This document shows positions 29,292-58,109 of a DNA stretch of 64,000 bases, piece after piece. The notes under the pieces were generated by a model. It had not been told where the DNA came from and searched no databases. It saw only the letters and a list, made by a program, of their open reading frames with translations. Where the stretch lies: positions 62,001 through 126,000 of the forward strand of contig CAMLJY010000001.1 in the NCBI GenBank assembly GCA_946480465.1, in the 5' to 3' direction. This DNA is from an uncultured Burkholderiales bacterium. GTDB taxonomy: Bacteria > Pseudomonadota > Gammaproteobacteria > Burkholderiales > Burkholderiaceae. A program made the position numbers and the translations under genes. Every line of letters starts with the position of its first letter. The first letter of the stretch is position 1.

Positions 29292-30248
29292 TCAGGCTGC
29301 GGCGGGCAGGCCCAGGCGGGCCCGCGCCTCGGCCGGCGACGCGATTTCGCGGCCGGCGCGGCGCGCGCACTGCGCCAGCGCTTCGATCATCGGGCCGTTG
29401 CCGGCGGCGCGTTCGCCGCCCGGCAGGTAGAAGCTGTCCTCCAGCCCGGTGCGCAGCATGCCGCCCAGCTCGGCCACGCGCTGGTGCAGAGGCCAGATCT
29501 CGGCCCGGCCGATCAGCGTGGCTTGCCACACGGCGCCCATGGCGTCGTCGGTCCGCTTCCGGGGCGCCTCGGCACCCTTGGGGAGCGGCCCCGGTGTGCC
29601 GGGGGCCGGATTCCCACGGGACACCACGTACTTCGGAAGCCACTGGAGCAACTCGGCATCGCAAGGCATGCCGGAGGCCACGCCCATCACGAAGTTGTAC
29701 TCGGGCAGACCGCTGAACATCCCGGCCTTCAGGTACATGCCCACCGAGCGCACGATGCCGACGTCGAAGCATTCGAACTCGGGGTGGGTGCCGGCCTCGG
29801 CCATCACGTCCAGCATGGCCTGCACCTTGGCCACCGGGTTGTCGAAGACCATCGGCGGCCAGGCCCAGCGGCCGTCTTCGCGCAGCTTCAGGTAGTTCAG
29901 GCTGCCGGCGTTGCAGGCGGCGATCTCCGGCTTCACGCGGCGGATGCAGGCCGCGGGGCCGCTGATGTCCGGGCCGATGACGCCGGTGGTCAGGTTGATG
30001 ATGACGCCGGGGCAGGCATCGCGGATGGCCTGGCACACCGCTTCGGCCAGGTCGGGATCCCAGCTCGGCAGGTGGCCCTTGCCCTCGCCCTGCTGGCGCA
30101 GGTGCACGTGCATGATGGCGGCGCCGGCATGGAAGGCGTCGCGCGCCTCGGCCGCCATCTGCGCGGGCGTCACGGGCACGGGGTGCTGCTTCGGGTCGGT
30201 CAGCACGCCGGTGAGGGCGCAGGTCAGGATGGCCTTGTCGGCATTCAT
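29292..30248 (-). CDS. Beta-keto acid cleavage enzyme (BKACE, DUF849 family)
   Basis: The 318-residue product is a BKACE/Kce-type TIM-barrel enzyme: KAILTCALTGVLTDPKQHP, HAGAAIMHVHLRQQGEGKG with the zinc-binding His-x-His, PGVIINLTTGVIG, PEIAACNAGSLNYLK and MLRTGLEDSFYLPGGERA. Known members condense a beta-keto acid with acetyl-CoA and release acetoacetate plus a new CoA ester, using zinc. It overlaps the biotin carboxylase gene by 4 bp (ATGA) and is the last gene of the leftward operon, in a place where Liu and Atu operons often encode other late-step enzymes. Its substrate may be a late keto intermediate (inference). Confidence 0.9.
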   Translation of the reverse strand: MNADKAILTCALTGVLTDPKQHPVPVTPAQMAAEARDAFHAGAAIMHVHLRQQGEGKGHLPSWDPDLAEAVCQAIRDACPGVIINLTTGVIGPDISGPAACIRRVKPEIAACNAGSLNYLKLREDGRWAWPPMVFDNPVAKVQAMLDVMAEAGTHPEFECFDVGIVRSVGMYLKAGMFSGLPEYNFVMGVASGMPCDAELLQWLPKYVVSRGNPAPGTPGPLPKGAEAPRKRTDDAMGAVWQATLIGRAEIWPLHQRVAELGGMLRTGLEDSFYLPGGERAAGNGPMIEALAQCARRAGREIASPAEARARLGLPAAA

Positions 30249-32239
30249 GGCGTTTCCAGTGCAAGTTCGACCAGCAGCGCGCCGGCGCGCACCGCCTCGC
30301 GCGGCGCGGCATGCACCGCGGCCACGGTGCCGGCGGCCCCGGCGTGCAGCCACATCTCCATCTTCATGGCCTCGATGCTGGCCAGCGGCTGGCCGGCCTC
30401 GACCCGGTCGCCGGGCTTGACCAGCAGCTGCGCGACCAGGCCAGCCACCGGCGCGCGGGCCTGGCGCGGGTCGTCGGCCGCGGCGGCGTCCGGAACCGGC
30501 GAGGGTTCATAAAAGCCAAAGGACGCGGCCTCGCGCACCAGGTGCAGCGTGGCGGGCGCGCGGCCCCGCGGCGGCTCCTCCACGGCATGCCAGCGGCGGC
30601 GCACGCCGGCGTGCTCCACCCAGGCCACGCTGCCTGTGCGCCGGACGAGACGGACGCCGTGCACCCGGCCATCCAGCGTGACCTGGGCCGATCCGTCTGC
30701 CGCCGGCGCCACGCGCATCGTGCGGGTTCGCTCGCCGCACCGCAGCGTGAGGCCGAAGGAGGCCACGCCGGCGCTGCGCAGCGCCGCCGGCGCGCGGGCC
30801 GTGGTGAGCAGCGCCGCCGCGAGCCATGCCTCGTCATCGGGCTGCGGGCGCTGCAGCAGCGGGTGGCCGCTGGTGGCCCAGTCGTCGATGAGCCCGGTGT
30901 GCAGCGCGCCGCGGCGGAAGTCCTCGTGCTGCAGCAGCTCGCGCAGAAAGCGGGCGTTCGTGCGTGGGCCGATGAGCGGCGCGTCCTCCAGGGCGGCGAC
31001 CAGGCGGCGGATGGCGTCGCCGCGGTCGCGGCCGTGCACGATCAGCTTGGCCACCATCGCGTCGTAGTGCGGTCCGATCTCGCTGCCTTCGGCGATGCCG
31101 TCGTCGATGCGCAGCGAGGGCGGGCACCCCGGCGGGTTGGCCGCGGCCAGCGCGGCCGCCGGCTGCCAGTGCAGCACGCGGCCGGTCTGCGGCCTGAACT
31201 GGTCGCAGGGGTCTTCGGCACACAGCCGCGCCTCGATCGCATGGCCGGCGAAGCGGACTTCGTGCTGTTGCAGCGGCAAGCGTTCGCCGGCGGCCACGCG
31301 CAATTGCCACTCCACCAGGTCCAGCCCGGTGACGGCCTCGGTGACCGGGTGCTCCACCTGCAGCCGGGTGTTCATCTCGAGGAAGAAGTGGCGGCCTCGC
31401 TGGTCGACGATGAACTCCACCGTACCGGCACCGACATAACCGACGGCATGAGCGGCCGCCACCGCGTCGCGGCCCATCGCCTCGCGCTGGCCGGCGGTGA
31501 TGATGGGCGAGGGCGATTCCTCGATCAGCTTCTGCCGGCGCCGCTGCGCCGTGCAGTCGCGTTCGCCCAGGTGGATGGCGTGGCCGTGGCGGTCGGCGAA
31601 GACCTGGATCTCGACGTGCCGGCCGCGCTCGACCAGGCGCTCCAGCATCAGGCGCCCGTCGCCGAAGGCGCTCCCGGCCTCGCGCCGCGCGTCCGCCAGT
31701 GCCGCGGGCAGCTCGGGCGCGCCCCGCACCAGCCGCATGCCGCGCCCGCCGCCGCCGGCGACGGCCTTGACCAGCAGCGGCCAGCCCAGGGCCTGGGCTT
31801 CGTGCCGCAGGCGCTCGTCGGACTGGTCCTCACCCAGGTAGCCGGGCACGCAGGGCACGCCGGCCTCGGCCATGCGGCGCTTGGCGCGGGCCTTGTCGCC
31901 CATCGCGTCGATCGCCTCTGCCGGCGGGCCGATGAAGACCAGGCCCGCCACGGCGCAGGCACGCGCGAAGTCGGCGCGTTCGGACAGGAAGCCGTAGCCG
32001 GGATGCAGCGCATCGGCGCCGGTGGCGCGGGCAGCGGTGATCAGCGCATCGATGCGCAGGTAGGACTCGGCCGCCGGCGCCGGCCCCAGCCGCACCGCCT
32101 CGTCGGCCTGGTGCACATGCGGCGCATCGGCATCGGCGTCGCTGAACACCGCCACGGTGCGGTAGCCCAGCGCCCGCGCGCTGCGGATCACCCGGCAGGC
32201 GATTTCCCCGCGGTTGGCGATGAGGATCCTGCTAAACAC
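30245..32239 (-). CDS. Acyl-CoA carboxylase biotin-carboxylase/BCCP subunit (AtuF/LiuD type)
   Basis: The 664-residue product joins a biotin carboxylase (ILIANRGEIACRVIRSARAL; ATP-grasp loop KAVAGGGGRGMRLV; EMNTRLQVEHPVTEAVTGLDL), a middle linker domain and a C-terminal biotinyl domain with Lys626 in SIEAMKMEMW. It is the alpha subunit of a heteromeric carboxylase, with the beta subunit encoded three genes upstream. Methylcrotonyl-CoA or geranyl-CoA carboxylase is the likely activity, given the neighbours. The start is GTG at 32239, whose first bases overlap the stop of a short frame that duplicates this gene's own N-terminus (32232-32357). Confidence 0.92.
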   Translation of the reverse strand: MFSRILIANRGEIACRVIRSARALGYRTVAVFSDADADAPHVHQADEAVRLGPAPAAESYLRIDALITAARATGADALHPGYGFLSERADFARACAVAGLVFIGPPAEAIDAMGDKARAKRRMAEAGVPCVPGYLGEDQSDERLRHEAQALGWPLLVKAVAGGGGRGMRLVRGAPELPAALADARREAGSAFGDGRLMLERLVERGRHVEIQVFADRHGHAIHLGERDCTAQRRRQKLIEESPSPIITAGQREAMGRDAVAAAHAVGYVGAGTVEFIVDQRGRHFFLEMNTRLQVEHPVTEAVTGLDLVEWQLRVAAGERLPLQQHEVRFAGHAIEARLCAEDPCDQFRPQTGRVLHWQPAAALAAANPPGCPPSLRIDDGIAEGSEIGPHYDAMVAKLIVHGRDRGDAIRRLVAALEDAPLIGPRTNARFLRELLQHEDFRRGALHTGLIDDWATSGHPLLQRPQPDDEAWLAAALLTTARAPAALRSAGVASFGLTLRCGERTRTMRVAPAADGSAQVTLDGRVHGVRLVRRTGSVAWVEHAGVRRRWHAVEEPPRGRAPATLHLVREAASFGFYEPSPVPDAAAADDPRQARAPVAGLVAQLLVKPGDRVEAGQPLASIEAMKMEMWLHAGAAGTVAAVHAAPREAVRAGALLVELALETP

Positions 32240-32357
32240 GACCGTGCCCCGCGGGTAAATCGCCTGCGTGCGCTGCGCGCACCATGCGTTCTGGCTTCGC
32301 CGCAGCGGCCTGGCGGCCGATGTCCCCGCGGTTGGCGATCAGGAACTTGTCAAACAT
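32232..32357 (-). pseudogene. Duplicated 5' end of the biotin carboxylase gene, now a 41-codon overlapping frame
   Basis: Starting at 32357 the frame reads MFDKFLIANRGDIG, a copy of the N-terminus found again in the next gene (MFSRILIANRGEIA). It then departs into unrelated sequence (RQAAAAKPERMVRAAHAGDL) and stops. Its ATG overlaps the stop of the crotonase gene (ATGTTTGA), and its stop overlaps the biotin carboxylase start (GTGTTTAG). It may be the original start, split off by an insertion or duplication of 118 bp, and may still couple translation between the two genes. Confidence 0.7.
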
Positions 32358-33342
32358 GATCCCGCTCCGCTGCCGGCGCCCACGCCGGTTTGCGCTTCTG
32401 CATGAAGGCGCTGGTGCCTTCGAGGCCTTCCGAGCCGAGCGCGGCGCGGGCGAACACGCTGGCGGCATGGTTCACCAGGCCGCCGGGTGACTCGAAGCGT
32501 GCGCGCGCCAGCAGTGCCTTGGTCGAGGCCAGGGCGCCGGGAGCGCAGTGCAGGATGTCGCTCACCACGCGTGATAGCGCCGCCTCCAGCGCCGCGCCGT
32601 CGTGCAATTCATGCACCAGCCGCAGCGCCAGCGCGTCCCGGGCATCGAGCCGGGCACCGGTGACGGCCAGGCGCTTGGCCTCGGCATAGCCCAGGCGCTC
32701 GACCAGGAAAGGCGCGATCTGCGCCGGCACCACGCCCAGCGAGGTCTCCGGCAGCCGGAAGCTGGCGCTGGGCGCGGCCAGCACCACGTCGGCGACGCAG
32801 GCCAGGCCGAGGCCGCCGCCCATCACCGAGCCTTCCACCACGGCCACCACCGCCAGCCCGGTCGACGCGAAGGCGACGCACAGCTCGCCGAAGGCCGCGC
32901 TGACGGCGGCCAGGGCGCCGGCCGATTCGGCCTCCCGGCCGCGCGCGGCGGCCATGTCGCGGACGTCCCCGCCCGCGCAGAAATGCCCGCCTGCGCCGCG
33001 CAGCACCAGCACCCGCGCGTCGGCCGAGGCCTGGGCTTCGGTCAGCACGGTGCGCAGATCGCGCACCATCTGCAGCGACATGGCGTTGCGGCTTTCGGGC
33101 CGGTTCAGCGTGATGCGCCAGACGCCGCGCTGCGGGGTGGCGTCCCGGGCGCCGCGCTGCGGCGTGGCGTCCGACGCGCCGCCGGGCGGCGTGGCATCCG
33201 AGGCGCCGCCGAGCGGCGTGGCATCCGAGGCGCCGCCGAGCGGCGTGGCATCCGAAGCGCCGCCGAGCGGCGTGGCATCCGAAGCGCCGCCGAGCGGCGC
33301 GTCGCGTTCGACGAGCAGCGTCTCCATCGCCGTCGCCGCCAT
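32350..33342 (-). CDS. Enoyl-CoA hydratase/isomerase (AtuE-like crotonase) with N-terminal repeat insert
   Basis: The 330-residue product is a crotonase-fold enzyme: WRITLNRPESRNAMSLQM, VLRGAGGHFCAGGDVRDM (oxyanion loop), VEGSVMGGGLGLACVADVVL and FRLPETSLGVVPAQIAPFL. The usual first catalytic glutamate is replaced in GGGLGLAC, while the second (LPETSLG) is kept, as in LiuC/AtuE-type glutaconyl-CoA hydratases. Residues about 15-72 are a repeated insert (PLGGASDAT units) absent from the family, lying between METLLVERD and GVWRITL. It begins 2 bp after the dehydrogenase stop. Methionine 6 (33327) is an alternative start. Confidence 0.9.
   Translation of the reverse strand: MAATAMETLLVERDAPLGGASDATPLGGASDATPLGGASDATPLGGASDATPPGGASDATPQRGARDATPQRGVWRITLNRPESRNAMSLQMVRDLRTVLTEAQASADARVLVLRGAGGHFCAGGDVRDMAAARGREAESAGALAAVSAAFGELCVAFASTGLAVVAVVEGSVMGGGLGLACVADVVLAAPSASFRLPETSLGVVPAQIAPFLVERLGYAEAKRLAVTGARLDARDALALRLVHELHDGAALEAALSRVVSDILHCAPGALASTKALLARARFESPGGLVNHAASVFARAALGSEGLEGTSAFMQKRKPAWAPAAERDHV
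33123..33300 (-). repeat. 27-bp in-frame tandem repeat array inside the crotonase gene
   Basis: Six full units (33123-33149, 33150-33176, 33177-33203, 33204-33230, 33231-33257, 33258-33284) and a partial seventh occur. Units five and six are identical and unit four differs by one base. Each has arms CGCCGC and GCGGCG around a 3-base loop (GCT, CGG or CGA); only the first unit has a mismatch. The array adds nine residues per unit (PLGGASDAT and variants) and keeps frame. Confidence 0.95.
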
Positions 33343-33344
33343 GC

Positions 33345-34499
33345 TCAGTGGCCGCCTTTCGGCAGGGTGCCTTCGAGCTTGCAGATGATGCCCAGCATCA
33401 CCTCGTCCGCGCCGCCGCCGATGGAGCCCAGGCGCGTGTCGCGGTAGGCCATGGAGACGATGTTGTCCCAGGTGAAGCCCATGCCGCCCCAGTACTGCAG
33501 GCAGCTGTCAGCCACTTCGCGCGATAGGCGGCCGGTCTTCAGCTTGGCCATCGAGGCGAGCTTGGTGACGTCCTTGCCGCCGACGTACAGCTCAACCGCC
33601 TTCCAGGTCAGCGCGCGCAGGCATTCCACCTCGGTGCGCAGCTCCGCGAGCCGGAAGTGCACCACCTGGTTGTCGAGGATGGCCTTGCCGAAGGCCTTGC
33701 GTTCGCGGGTGTACTCGATGGTGGCGTCGATCAGCCGGTCCAGCCCGCGCAGCGCCGAGGCGGCGGCCCACAGCCGCTCTTCCTGGAACTGCATCATCTG
33801 GAAGGTGAAGCCCAGGCCTTCCTGGCCGATCACGTTGCGCCGCGGCACGCGCACGTTGTCGAAGAACAGCTGCGCCGTGTCCGACGAGTTCATGCCGATC
33901 TTCTTGATCTTCTGCTTCGTGATGCCCTTCGCATCCATCGGCACGATGATCAGGCTCTTGTTCTTGTGCACCGGTCCGTCGCTGGTGTTGGCGAGCAGGC
34001 AGCACCAGTCGGCCTGCAGGCCGTTGGTGATCCACATCTTGCTGCCGTTGATCACGTAGTCGCCGTCGACCGGCTTGGCGGTGGTCTTCACCGCCGCCAC
34101 GTCGGACCCGCCGCCGGGCTCGCTGACCGCCACGCAGCCGACCACGTCGCCGGCGATGGCCGGTGCCAGGAACTCGCGCCTCAGTTCGTCGGAGCCGAAA
34201 CGCGCCAGCGCCGGCGTGCACATGTCGGTGTGCACGCCGATGGACATCGGCACGCCGCCGCAGTGGCAACTGCCCAGCGCCTCGGCCATCACCATCGAGT
34301 ACGAGAAGTCGAGGCCCAGGCCACCGTATTCCTCCGGGTACTTGATGCCCAGGAGGCCTAAAGCGCCGAGCTTCTTGAAGACCTCGTGCGCCGGGTACTG
34401 CTCGGCGGCTTCCCACTCGGGCACGTGGGGGTTGATTTCCTTGTCGACGAACTTCGTCACCGTGTCCGCGATCTGCTGGTGCTCAGGGGTCAGCTTCAT
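33345..34499 (-). CDS. Acyl-CoA dehydrogenase (AtuD/citronellyl-CoA dehydrogenase-like)
   Basis: The 384-residue product is a FAD-dependent acyl-CoA dehydrogenase: LGIKYPEEYGGLGLDFSYSM, GCVAVSEPGGGSDVAAVKTT (FAD/substrate loop), GSKMWITNGLQADW and RKAFGKAILDNQVVHFRLAE, ending QYWGGMGFTWDN and GGGADEVMLGI. The segment GGVPMSIGVHTDMCTPALARFGSDE resembles my recollection of AtuD, and differs from isovaleryl-CoA dehydrogenases, which have a histidine-serine-asparagine stretch there. It would introduce a double bond before carboxylation. Genes on both sides are 2 to 25 bp away. The exact substrate is an inference. Confidence 0.92.
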   Translation of the reverse strand: MKLTPEHQQIADTVTKFVDKEINPHVPEWEAAEQYPAHEVFKKLGALGLLGIKYPEEYGGLGLDFSYSMVMAEALGSCHCGGVPMSIGVHTDMCTPALARFGSDELRREFLAPAIAGDVVGCVAVSEPGGGSDVAAVKTTAKPVDGDYVINGSKMWITNGLQADWCCLLANTSDGPVHKNKSLIIVPMDAKGITKQKIKKIGMNSSDTAQLFFDNVRVPRRNVIGQEGLGFTFQMMQFQEERLWAAASALRGLDRLIDATIEYTRERKAFGKAILDNQVVHFRLAELRTEVECLRALTWKAVELYVGGKDVTKLASMAKLKTGRLSREVADSCLQYWGGMGFTWDNIVSMAYRDTRLGSIGGGADEVMLGIICKLEGTLPKGGH

Positions 34500-34524: not shown

Positions 34525-36141
34525 CTAAAGCCGCGCGACGCCGAAGGCGTTGGGGCGCAGCACGCGCTGTTCGGATTCGGCCGCGAGCGCGAGGCACAGG
34601 CCCAGCACCCGACGGGTGTCGCGCGGGTCGATCACGCCGTCGTCCCACAGGCGTGCGGTGCCGAAGAGCACGTGCGACTCGCGGTCGATGCGCTGGCGCA
34701 GCTGGTCGCTCATGGCCTTCAGCGCCTCGTCATCGACGGCCAAGCCGCCGCGTTCCAGCTTGGCGCGGCTGACGATCTCCATCACCATCGCCGCTTGCGC
34801 GCCGCCCATCACCGCCACGCGGGCCGAGGGCCAGCTGAAGATGAAGCGCGGATCGAAGCCGCGGCCGCACATGCCGTAGTTGCCTGCGCCGAAGCTGCCG
34901 CCCAGCACGATGGTGAACTTCGGCACCCGCGCATTGGCGACGGCCTGGATCATCTTGCTGCCGTGCTTGATGGCGCCGGCGTGCTCGGCCTCGCGGCCCA
35001 CCATGTAGCCGGTGGTGTTCTGCAGGAAGACGAGCGGGGTGCCGCTCTGGTCGCACAGCTGGATGAACTGCCCGGCCTTGGTCGAGCCCGCCGGCTGGAT
35101 CGGGCCGTTGTTGCCGAGGATGCCGAGCAGGCGGCCTTCGATGCGGGCATGGCCGCAGACGGTGTCCGGCGCGTACGGGCCCTTGAACTCGAGGAAGTCC
35201 GAGCCGTCGACGAGGCGGGCGATGACCTCGCGCACGTCGTAGGGCTCGCGGTCGTCGGCGGGCACCAGGCCCATCAGCTCTTCCGCATCGAAGAGCGGGG
35301 CGGGGACGCTGGCCGGCGCCGAGGGTGGCGTGGTGTCCCAGTTCAGCTTGTCGAGCAGTTCACGCGTCAGCGCGATGGCGTGCGCGTCGTTCTCGGCCAG
35401 GTACTCGCCCAGGCCGGTGGTCTCGGCATGCAGCATCGCGCCGCCCAGCTCGTCGTCGCTCGCGTCCTCGCCGATGGCGGCTTTCACCAGCGGCGGGCCG
35501 GCCAGGAAGATGCTGGAGCGGTCGCGCACCAGCACCACGTAGTCCGACAGGCCCGGCAGGTAGGCGCCGCCGGCGGTGGACGAGCCATGCACCACCGCCA
35601 CCTGCGGGATGCCGGCCGCGGACAGCCGCGCCTGGTTGGCGAAGGCGCGGCCGCCCTCGACGAACATCTCGCTCTGGTACATCAGGTTGGCGCCGCCCGA
35701 TTCCACCAGCGACACCAGCGGCAGCTTGTTCTCCATCGCGATCTGCTGCGCGCGCAGGGCCTTGCGCAGGCCCATCGGCGCGATGGTGCCGCCCTTGATC
35801 GCCGCGTCATTGGCGGACACCAGCACCCGTTTGCCGGCGACCGTGCCGATGCCGACGATGGAGCCCCCGCCCATCACGCTCTTCTTGCCGTCGTCGTCGT
35901 GCATGCCCAGGCCGGCCAGCGTCGACAGCTCGAGGAAGGCCGAGCCGCGGTCCAGCAGCCGCGCCACGCGTTCGCGCGGCAGCAGCTGGCCGCGACGCTC
36001 GAACTTGTCGGCCTTGGATGCGGATTCGGCCACCACCAAGGCCTCCAGCCGGCGCACTTCCGCCAGGCGCTCGGCCATGCGCTCGGCATTGGCGCGGAAG
36101 GCGGCGGAGCGCGGATCGAGGCGGCTGTTCAACGCGGGCAT
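34525..36141 (-). CDS. Acyl-CoA carboxylase carboxyltransferase (beta) subunit (AtuC/LiuB-like)
   Basis: The 538-residue product is a carboxyltransferase of the propionyl/methylcrotonyl type with two crotonase-like halves: ESGGANLMYQSEMFVEGGR and VHGSSTAGGAYLPGLSDYVV in the N-half, NNGPIQPAGSTKAGQFIQLC and VLGGSFGAGNYGMCGRGFDP in the C-half. It transfers CO2 from biotin on the alpha subunit (30245-32239) to an unsaturated acyl-CoA. The sequence EHAGAIKHGSKMIQAVANAR looks closer to geranyl-CoA than to methylcrotonyl-CoA carboxylases, but this is from memory. The start overlaps the SDR stop by one base (TGATG). Confidence 0.93.
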   Translation of the reverse strand: MPALNSRLDPRSAAFRANAERMAERLAEVRRLEALVVAESASKADKFERRGQLLPRERVARLLDRGSAFLELSTLAGLGMHDDDGKKSVMGGGSIVGIGTVAGKRVLVSANDAAIKGGTIAPMGLRKALRAQQIAMENKLPLVSLVESGGANLMYQSEMFVEGGRAFANQARLSAAGIPQVAVVHGSSTAGGAYLPGLSDYVVLVRDRSSIFLAGPPLVKAAIGEDASDDELGGAMLHAETTGLGEYLAENDAHAIALTRELLDKLNWDTTPPSAPASVPAPLFDAEELMGLVPADDREPYDVREVIARLVDGSDFLEFKGPYAPDTVCGHARIEGRLLGILGNNGPIQPAGSTKAGQFIQLCDQSGTPLVFLQNTTGYMVGREAEHAGAIKHGSKMIQAVANARVPKFTIVLGGSFGAGNYGMCGRGFDPRFIFSWPSARVAVMGGAQAAMVMEIVSRAKLERGGLAVDDEALKAMSDQLRQRIDRESHVLFGTARLWDDGVIDPRDTRRVLGLCLALAAESEQRVLRPNAFGVARL

Positions 36142-37028
36142 CAGTGCTGTTCCTCGCCGGGCGCGTCGCGCAGCACGGCGGGCGGCACCGCGCGGTGGAA
36201 GCCCTCGAAGGGCCGGCTGTTGTGGTGGTCCACGCGTGGGAAGACGGGCGATCCGAGCCCGGCGCCGCCGTCGATCGGCAGCGTCACGCCGGTGATGAAG
36301 GCGGCCGCCGGCGACAGCAGGAAGACGATGGCGGCGCTGACCTCGGCTTCCGTCGCCAGGCGGCGCAGCGGCACGTGGTCTTTCAGCTTCGGGATCAAGG
36401 CCTTGGCGGCGCCGCCGTAGGTGTCCATGCCGCTGGACGCCACCCAGCCCGGCGCCACCGCGTTGACGCGCACGCCGGCCGGCGCCCACTCGAAAGCCGC
36501 GCTCATCGTCAGGTTGGCCATGCCGGCCCGCGCGGCGCCGGAATGCGCCATGCCCGGCATGCCCAGCTTGTAGTCGGCGGTCATGTTGACGATGGCGCCG
36601 CCGTGCGTGCGCAGGCACTGCGTGTACAGCTCCCGCATCATCAGGAAGCCGCCGGTCAGGTTGTTCGACACCACCGCATCGAAGCCGTTGCGGCTGATGG
36701 CTTCCAGTGGCGCCGGGAACTGGCCGCCGGCGTTGTTGACCAGCGCGGTGATGGGCCCGTCCTTCAGCGCCTCGGCCACGTGCTGCTTCACCGCGGCCTC
36801 GTCGCGGATGTCGAAGGCGCGCCAGCGGCAGCGGCCGCCGTCCTCGGCGATCTCGCCTGCCACGCGCCGCAGCTTGTCTTCCGAACGGCCACTGATCAGC
36901 ACCTCGGCGCCCAGCGCGGCCAATTCGTGCGCCACGCAGCGCCCGATGCCCGAGCCGCCGCCGGTGACCCACACGCGCCGTCCATCGAACAGGCCGGGGC
37001 TGAAGACGCTGCGGTAGCGGTCGGGCAT
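36141..37028 (-). CDS. SDR-family oxidoreductase, PECR/2,4-dienoyl-CoA reductase-like
   Basis: The 295-residue product has the NADP-binding motif TGGGSGIG (22-29), NNAG (98-101) and the segment HSGAARAGMANLTMSAAFEWA (162-182). In ordinary SDRs this position is Tyr-x3-Lys. Here the tyrosine is absent, exactly as in peroxisomal trans-2-enoyl-CoA reductase and its dienoyl-CoA reductase relatives, so an enoyl- or dienoyl-CoA substrate is likely. A strong ribosome site (GGAGGAAC) precedes the ATG at 37028. It is the first gene of the leftward operon, matching the place of AtuB ahead of AtuC. Confidence 0.88.
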   Translation of the reverse strand: MPDRYRSVFSPGLFDGRRVWVTGGGSGIGRCVAHELAALGAEVLISGRSEDKLRRVAGEIAEDGGRCRWRAFDIRDEAAVKQHVAEALKDGPITALVNNAGGQFPAPLEAISRNGFDAVVSNNLTGGFLMMRELYTQCLRTHGGAIVNMTADYKLGMPGMAHSGAARAGMANLTMSAAFEWAPAGVRVNAVAPGWVASSGMDTYGGAAKALIPKLKDHVPLRRLATEAEVSAAIVFLLSPAAAFITGVTLPIDGGAGLGSPVFPRVDHHNSRPFEGFHRAVPPAVLRDAPGEEQH

Positions 37029-57914: not shown

Positions 57915-58049
57915 GCCGCCCGGGCGTAAAGGCGAGGGTGGGGGCCGCGGCGGCGCGGCTGTCACGCTCGCCGTGCCTCGCGGCCTGCCGCTGGTTTGGC
58001 GCTGCCGCCGTGGCGGCGCGTCGGGTGCTTGCCTCGGGCTCTGCGAGGG

Positions 58050-58109
58050 GCTCTCGGTGATGCTCTCGGTGGTGCTCTCGGTGGTGCTCTCAGTGGTGCT
58101 GTCAGTGGC
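58050..58109. repeat. 12-bp tandem repeat, five copies
   Basis: GCTCTCGGTGAT, GCTCTCGGTGGT (twice), GCTCTCAGTGGT and GCTGTCAGTGGC follow directly. The stop codon of the leftward gene 58102-58737 lies in the last copy. Confidence 0.9.

Follow-up and report, generated by a model that had tools for sequence, protein, structure and literature searches.

Intragenic minisatellites and other small variable segments occur in bacterial genes and are, according to the sections of PMC2884548 on this subject, particularly abundant in genes for membrane proteins. Two further repeat types offer points of comparison. PARCELs are tandem repeats in coding sequence that show dyad symmetry and differ in copy number; their amphipathic unit of 25 residues (75 nt) occurs in many unrelated open reading frames (ORFs). 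Rickettsia palindromic elements insert into assorted genes.

Here we describe an array of 27-bp units within a gene for a catabolic enzyme, located in a 64-kb stretch of DNA (in the following called the window). With a probability of about 0.8, we regard it as an in-frame minisatellite (VNTR) of intragenic type, placed at the first beta-hairpin turn of an AtuE-type crotonase. It would hence most likely be a repeat of a common sort that changes in size within its gene, and not an element of foreign origin.

The host gene and its neighbourhood

The best PDB sequence match of the encoded crotonase is AtuE of P. aeruginosa (4zu2, 9.7e-75). In a fold search, 4zu2 took rank 3 behind two Marinobacter 4k3w chains, with 54% identity in the fold alignment, and several close relatives carry the source name isohexenylglutaconyl-CoA hydratase. 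The nearby carboxylase beta subunit scored 717 bits to geranyl-CoA carboxylase (5ikl) versus 546 bits to the beta subunit of methylcrotonyl-CoA carboxylase, and an AtuD-like acyl-CoA dehydrogenase gene, putatively for citronellyl-CoA dehydrogenase, lies beside the crotonase gene. As a whole, the neighbourhood is similar to the set of genes for acyclic terpene utilization laid out in the pertinent part of PMC4847356. By similarity and neighbourhood, the enzyme is thus most like an AtuE-type isohexenylglutaconyl-CoA hydratase in an atu-type cluster. The nearest solved chain to the alpha subunit is, however, the alpha subunit of methylcrotonyl-CoA carboxylase, which speaks against the atu label, and none of the best 25 of 71 NCBIfam rows for the crotonase reached its own cut-off; for PRK05674 (gamma-carboxygeranoyl-CoA hydratase equivalog) the score was 153.8 bits, below the cut-off of 426. 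AtuE is therefore used here as a name by similarity and neighbourhood only. The two enzymes share the crotonase core and similar gene neighbours, but the match to 4zu2 covers residues 70-329 of the query and 13-270 of the chain and thus begins only past the array, so that 4zu2 shows no counterpart of it.

Adjoining the biotin carboxylase gene lies a gene for a beta-keto acid cleavage enzyme (BKACE, 1.4e-78) at 29295-30506, which may belong to this catabolic cluster as well. On the other side, a 295-residue frame at 36141-37028 ends where the carboxylase beta gene starts; from its motif, we take it to be short-chain-dehydrogenase-like. The ORF listed at 34525-36972 (815 aa) extends out of frame into it.

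Table 1 Features of the array and its surroundings in the window.
Feature	Coordinates	Strand	Remarks
biotin carboxylase alpha subunit gene	30245..32239	-	family match; AtuF-like by position
atuE-like crotonase gene	32350..33342	-	330 aa; Pfam ECH_1 1.8e-38
native turn and second strand, PQRGVWRIT	33109..33135	-	proposed array seed
inserted array	33136..33297	-	six 27-bp units (54 codons)
unit 6, PQRGARDAT	33136..33162	-	most diverged unit
unit 5, PPGGASDAT	33163..33189	-
unit 4, PLGGASDAT	33190..33216	-
unit 3, PLGGASDAT	33217..33243	-
unit 2, PLGGASDAT	33244..33270	-
unit 1, PLGGASDAT	33271..33297	-
acyl-CoA dehydrogenase gene (AtuD-like)	33345..34499	-	Pfam family match; adjoins crotonase gene
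geranyl-CoA carboxylase beta-subunit-like gene (AtuC-like)	34525..36141	-	match to 5ikl

Structure of the array

Tandem Repeats Finder returned a period of 27 with 6.6 copies and 92% matches at 33123-33299, and translation of the units confirmed the tandem array that the original prediction had placed in this gene. In coding order, four PLGGASDAT units are followed by PPGGASDAT, PQRGARDAT and the native PQRGVWRIT. The six full units expected were all found, followed by this native segment. The insert sits in the turn between crotonase strands 1 and 2, which bears out its predicted location after the first strand and ahead of WRITLNRPE. Compared with array-free relatives, the protein is longer here by exactly 54 residues (span 69 vs 15) instead of the suggested 58 or so. 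Being tandem, with a unit longer than that of a microsatellite and a period that is a multiple of three, the array has the properties of an in-frame minisatellite.

Divergence of the units rises toward the native strand. Units 1-4 share 26-27 of 27 bases pairwise, in agreement with the claim that the most recent units are nearly identical; unit 5 is identical to them at 24/27 positions, and unit 6 matches units 1-5 at 19-20/27 and the native segment at 20/27.

A second tandem repeat in the window, at 58038-58108, has a 12-bp unit in about 4.9 copies. One of its minus-strand frames reads STTESTTESTTESITES, and the two stop-to-stop frames overlapping it had no Pfam match at E 1e-10.

Variation in size among relatives

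Searching about 5.8 billion protein sequences, we obtained 4762 matches among the 7995 best word-sharing candidates, of which the best 120 were compared, all of them at their N-termini. Judged by the best matches, the source would be a member of the Burkholderiales close to Rubrivivax, Ideonella and Aquabacterium. In the closest set of 24 rows (the window protein and P0001-P0023), we measured the span from strand 1 to TLNRP. The spans of 69 (window), 60, 51, 42, 33, 33, 33 and 15 residues form a nine-residue ladder; 15 rows have a span of 15, seven stand on the ladder above it, and two lie off it (P0004, span 50; P0010, span 38). A looser anchor catches an earlier TVAV in P0012-P0014 and gives 20 instead of 15, hence figures from the strict anchor are used throughout. 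The inserts of relatives are worth 5, 4, 3, 2 and 0 units compared with 6 in the window. As the original prediction implied, the 27-bp period keeps the frame and sizes differ mostly by whole units, and the alignment shows an insert varying from 0 to 6 units' worth, not one of fixed length.

The closest relative, P0001, has exactly one unit fewer although its core is identical to that of the window protein (258/258), a whole-unit copy difference (6 vs 5) between close relatives. The exact copy number of six could be set by assembly, the array (162 bp) being close to short-read length and tandem repeats being known, as noted in part of PMC6868369, to be mis-assembled. That assembly altogether created this number, or the one-unit gap to P0001, is the least probable of the alternatives weighed here, because relatives from different sources hold arrays that have diverged and are of other sizes. 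Moreover, P0001 differs by a substitution, with one changed residue in unit 1.

Similar units (PLGGASDAT, PLGGASDVT) are kept, according to the alignment, in relatives 81-84% identical to the window protein. Under a strict pattern of two adjacent P[LQ][AG]G units, only P0001-P0004 were positive among the best 120 proteins; since P0005-P0007 lack this pattern, we call their inserts degenerate, and their two-unit label rests on insert length and the in-register score. Among the matches listed, searches with N-terminal parts yielded no array-bearing proteins beyond P0001-P0007: one returned P0001-P0003, P0006 and P0007, another P0001-P0007 and the array-free P0011. At 116 loci, some of them duplicate places, two adjacent units occurred in none of 112 readable N-termini. 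Genome scans, which covered samples of larger groups, gave no relative above 72% identity among the matches listed; units were therefore compared between species at the protein level.

In the homologues of Aquincola (L084, as P0029 from Aquincola sp. S2) and Aquabacterium humicola (L085, as P0055), the turn is exactly 9 residues longer without a native register match. P0029 and P0055 were considered as one-unit arrays, but with the true register ranking only 5 and 4 of 9, they were excluded from the ladder for lack of a register match.

Origin of the unit

When each insert was compared with the native 9-mer of its own protein, the true register came first of the 9 phases in all seven on-ladder array rows, two of which are near-copies. 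Among the off-ladder rows, it was first of 9 in P0010 and only 6th of 9 in P0004. The per-column residue match in columns 5-9 is weak, with fractions of 0.045-0.39 over the seven on-ladder rows. At the DNA level, 20 of the 27 native bases recur in unit 6, more than in any of 18,981 in-frame background 27-mers (maximum 19) from 43 ORFs chosen by length and GC3. This identity leans on the first 13 bases, the last 14 matching at 7/14 (background fraction 0.17), and registers taking in the upstream RDA codons fit the native segment equally well (20/27). The array was probably, though by no means certainly, seeded by duplication of the native nine-codon turn-plus-strand segment, a reading that the DNA identity, being confined to the first 13 bases, only partly shows.

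The units also contain hairpins, and the original prediction had seen in them a dispersed palindrome that invaded the coding region and then multiplied. Such an element would be comparable to Rickettsia palindromic elements or PARCELs. Palindromic insertions in frame within housekeeping genes are on record in the relevant part of PMC2996958. The window holds six copies of CGCCGC-N3-GCGGCG, compared with a mean of 0.67 and a maximum of 4 over 100 shuffles. Of the seven hairpin positions that we counted, only that at 33123-33137 is imperfect, by a single mismatch in its right arm; the other six are perfect, against five of six in the original prediction. Three different loop types keep perfect arms, for which the chance would be about 0.18 cubed if they were independent events, but their shared descent means that they are not. 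Using the codon usage of the window's high-GC3 ORFs, we obtained perfect 6-bp arms in 17-19% of synonymous draws for each of the five P-x-x-G contexts of the array, and in none for a sixth context, TPWPGV, taken from relatives.

Furthermore, the native segment, with which the unit is in register, already holds the near-palindrome. All six perfect copies of the pattern lie in the array, and the unit was found nowhere else in the window. The exact 21-base pattern was absent from viral contigs, and the unit, allowing up to 3 mismatches, from 100 genomes of relatives of G229 (homologue 70% identical), none of them a close relative. Plasmids searched with the array DNA returned a single match, of 71.9%, in a Pseudoroseomonas PRC-barrel gene. 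With no dispersal found in the window, the viral contigs or these 100 genomes, a native register and hairpins no stronger than expected from recoding, an invading palindrome is not supported, and we judge it highly improbable.

Phylogenetic distribution

A tree of 36 rows was computed on core sequence only; it has 32 inner branches, of which 9 are starred and 15 open. The array rows do not cluster as one group. The window protein and P0001 fall inside a starred set of 13 together with 11 array-free rows, and P0002-P0007 lie outside of it. The AU test did not reject a single clade of the eight array rows (p 0.086); when P0010 was included, p was 0.026. Array presence on this tree needs at least three changes. 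Units resemble each other across lineages (the window has PLGGASDAT and P0003 has PLGGASDVT), which would speak for a single origin followed by losses, or for exchange, rather than for invention several times over.

A different history would make the beta-hairpin a lineage-specific repeat nursery, in which the native nine-codon segment went through several rounds of duplication, expansion and clean erasure within one clade. Array-bearing and clean relatives would then stand side by side perhaps because the GC-rich near-palindrome of the native segment is a slippage hotspot. We regard this history as rather doubtful.

Translation start, protein structure and selection

Two ATGs, at residues 1 and 6, precede the array, and the first lies 2 bp past the stop of the upstream acyl-CoA dehydrogenase gene. 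The first strand, TL[LI]VER, is kept in 8/8 array rows, from which we conclude that translation starts upstream of the array. A start downstream of it was discounted, as array-bearing and array-free rows alike keep this strand.

In an AlphaFold2 model of the window protein, residues 19-67, between strands 9-13 and 74-79, have a pLDDT below 50. The model is of moderate quality (mean 68.4; five models 41.2-68.4). For the array-free P0008 (mean 75.4), strands 9-13 and 20-25 were predicted to be joined by a short turn. In these models the array looks like a floppy surface loop; the hairpin tip is presumably exposed in crotonase oligomers.

Repeat length might instead be a selected trait, with the loop tuning partner binding, localisation or stability, or with mRNA hairpins slowing translation. 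The frame is kept and similar units persist in the relatives 81-84% identical mentioned above, as this would predict, but most of the closest rows (15 of 24) do without an insert and AlphaFold2 shows no structure in it. The array mRNA folds at -107.5 kcal/mol compared with a mean of -111.2 for synonymous recodings, and 191/300 independent and 174/300 repeat-preserving recodings were at least as stable. Selection for mRNA hairpins thus gave no signal, and selection on repeat length in general appears improbable.

Discussion

We envisage that the native nine-codon turn-plus-strand segment was most likely first doubled in tandem. The spare copy would have ceased to be strand-like and, through slippage during replication or through unequal recombination, would then have gained and lost units, mostly in 27-bp steps. 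Slippage as the motor of copy change and near-neutrality of the repeat are both inferred. Because the turn would tolerate added length, the repeats could form a floppy loop and leave the enzyme core unchanged.

The array reveals no new system. Its value lies in a natural series (0, 2, 3, 4, 5 and 6 units' worth in one loop of one enzyme) for the birth of in-frame repeats from coding DNA, which bears also on the persistence of such repeats and on how much floppy sequence a crotonase tolerates. Literature searches on repeats, on the enzyme together with repeats and on AtuE yielded no publication title on this array, which does not prove that there is none.

Among known systems, PARCELs resemble the array in being coding tandem repeats of dyad symmetry and variable copy number. 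Their 25-residue amphipathic unit contrasts with one of 9 residues here, and their spread over many ORFs with a single gene and no dispersal found. Rickettsia palindromic elements likewise place an in-frame palindrome in a non-structured segment of a housekeeping-type gene; theirs are insertions in assorted genes, whereas here a tandem array stands at one gene. These elements are among those mentioned in PMC2996958. The segments described in the sections of PMC2884548 cited at the outset are similarly short and in-gene, some being in-frame tandem repeats of at least 20 bp, and vary among close relatives; the array differs from the membrane-protein genes emphasized there in its location in a crotonase-family catabolic enzyme.
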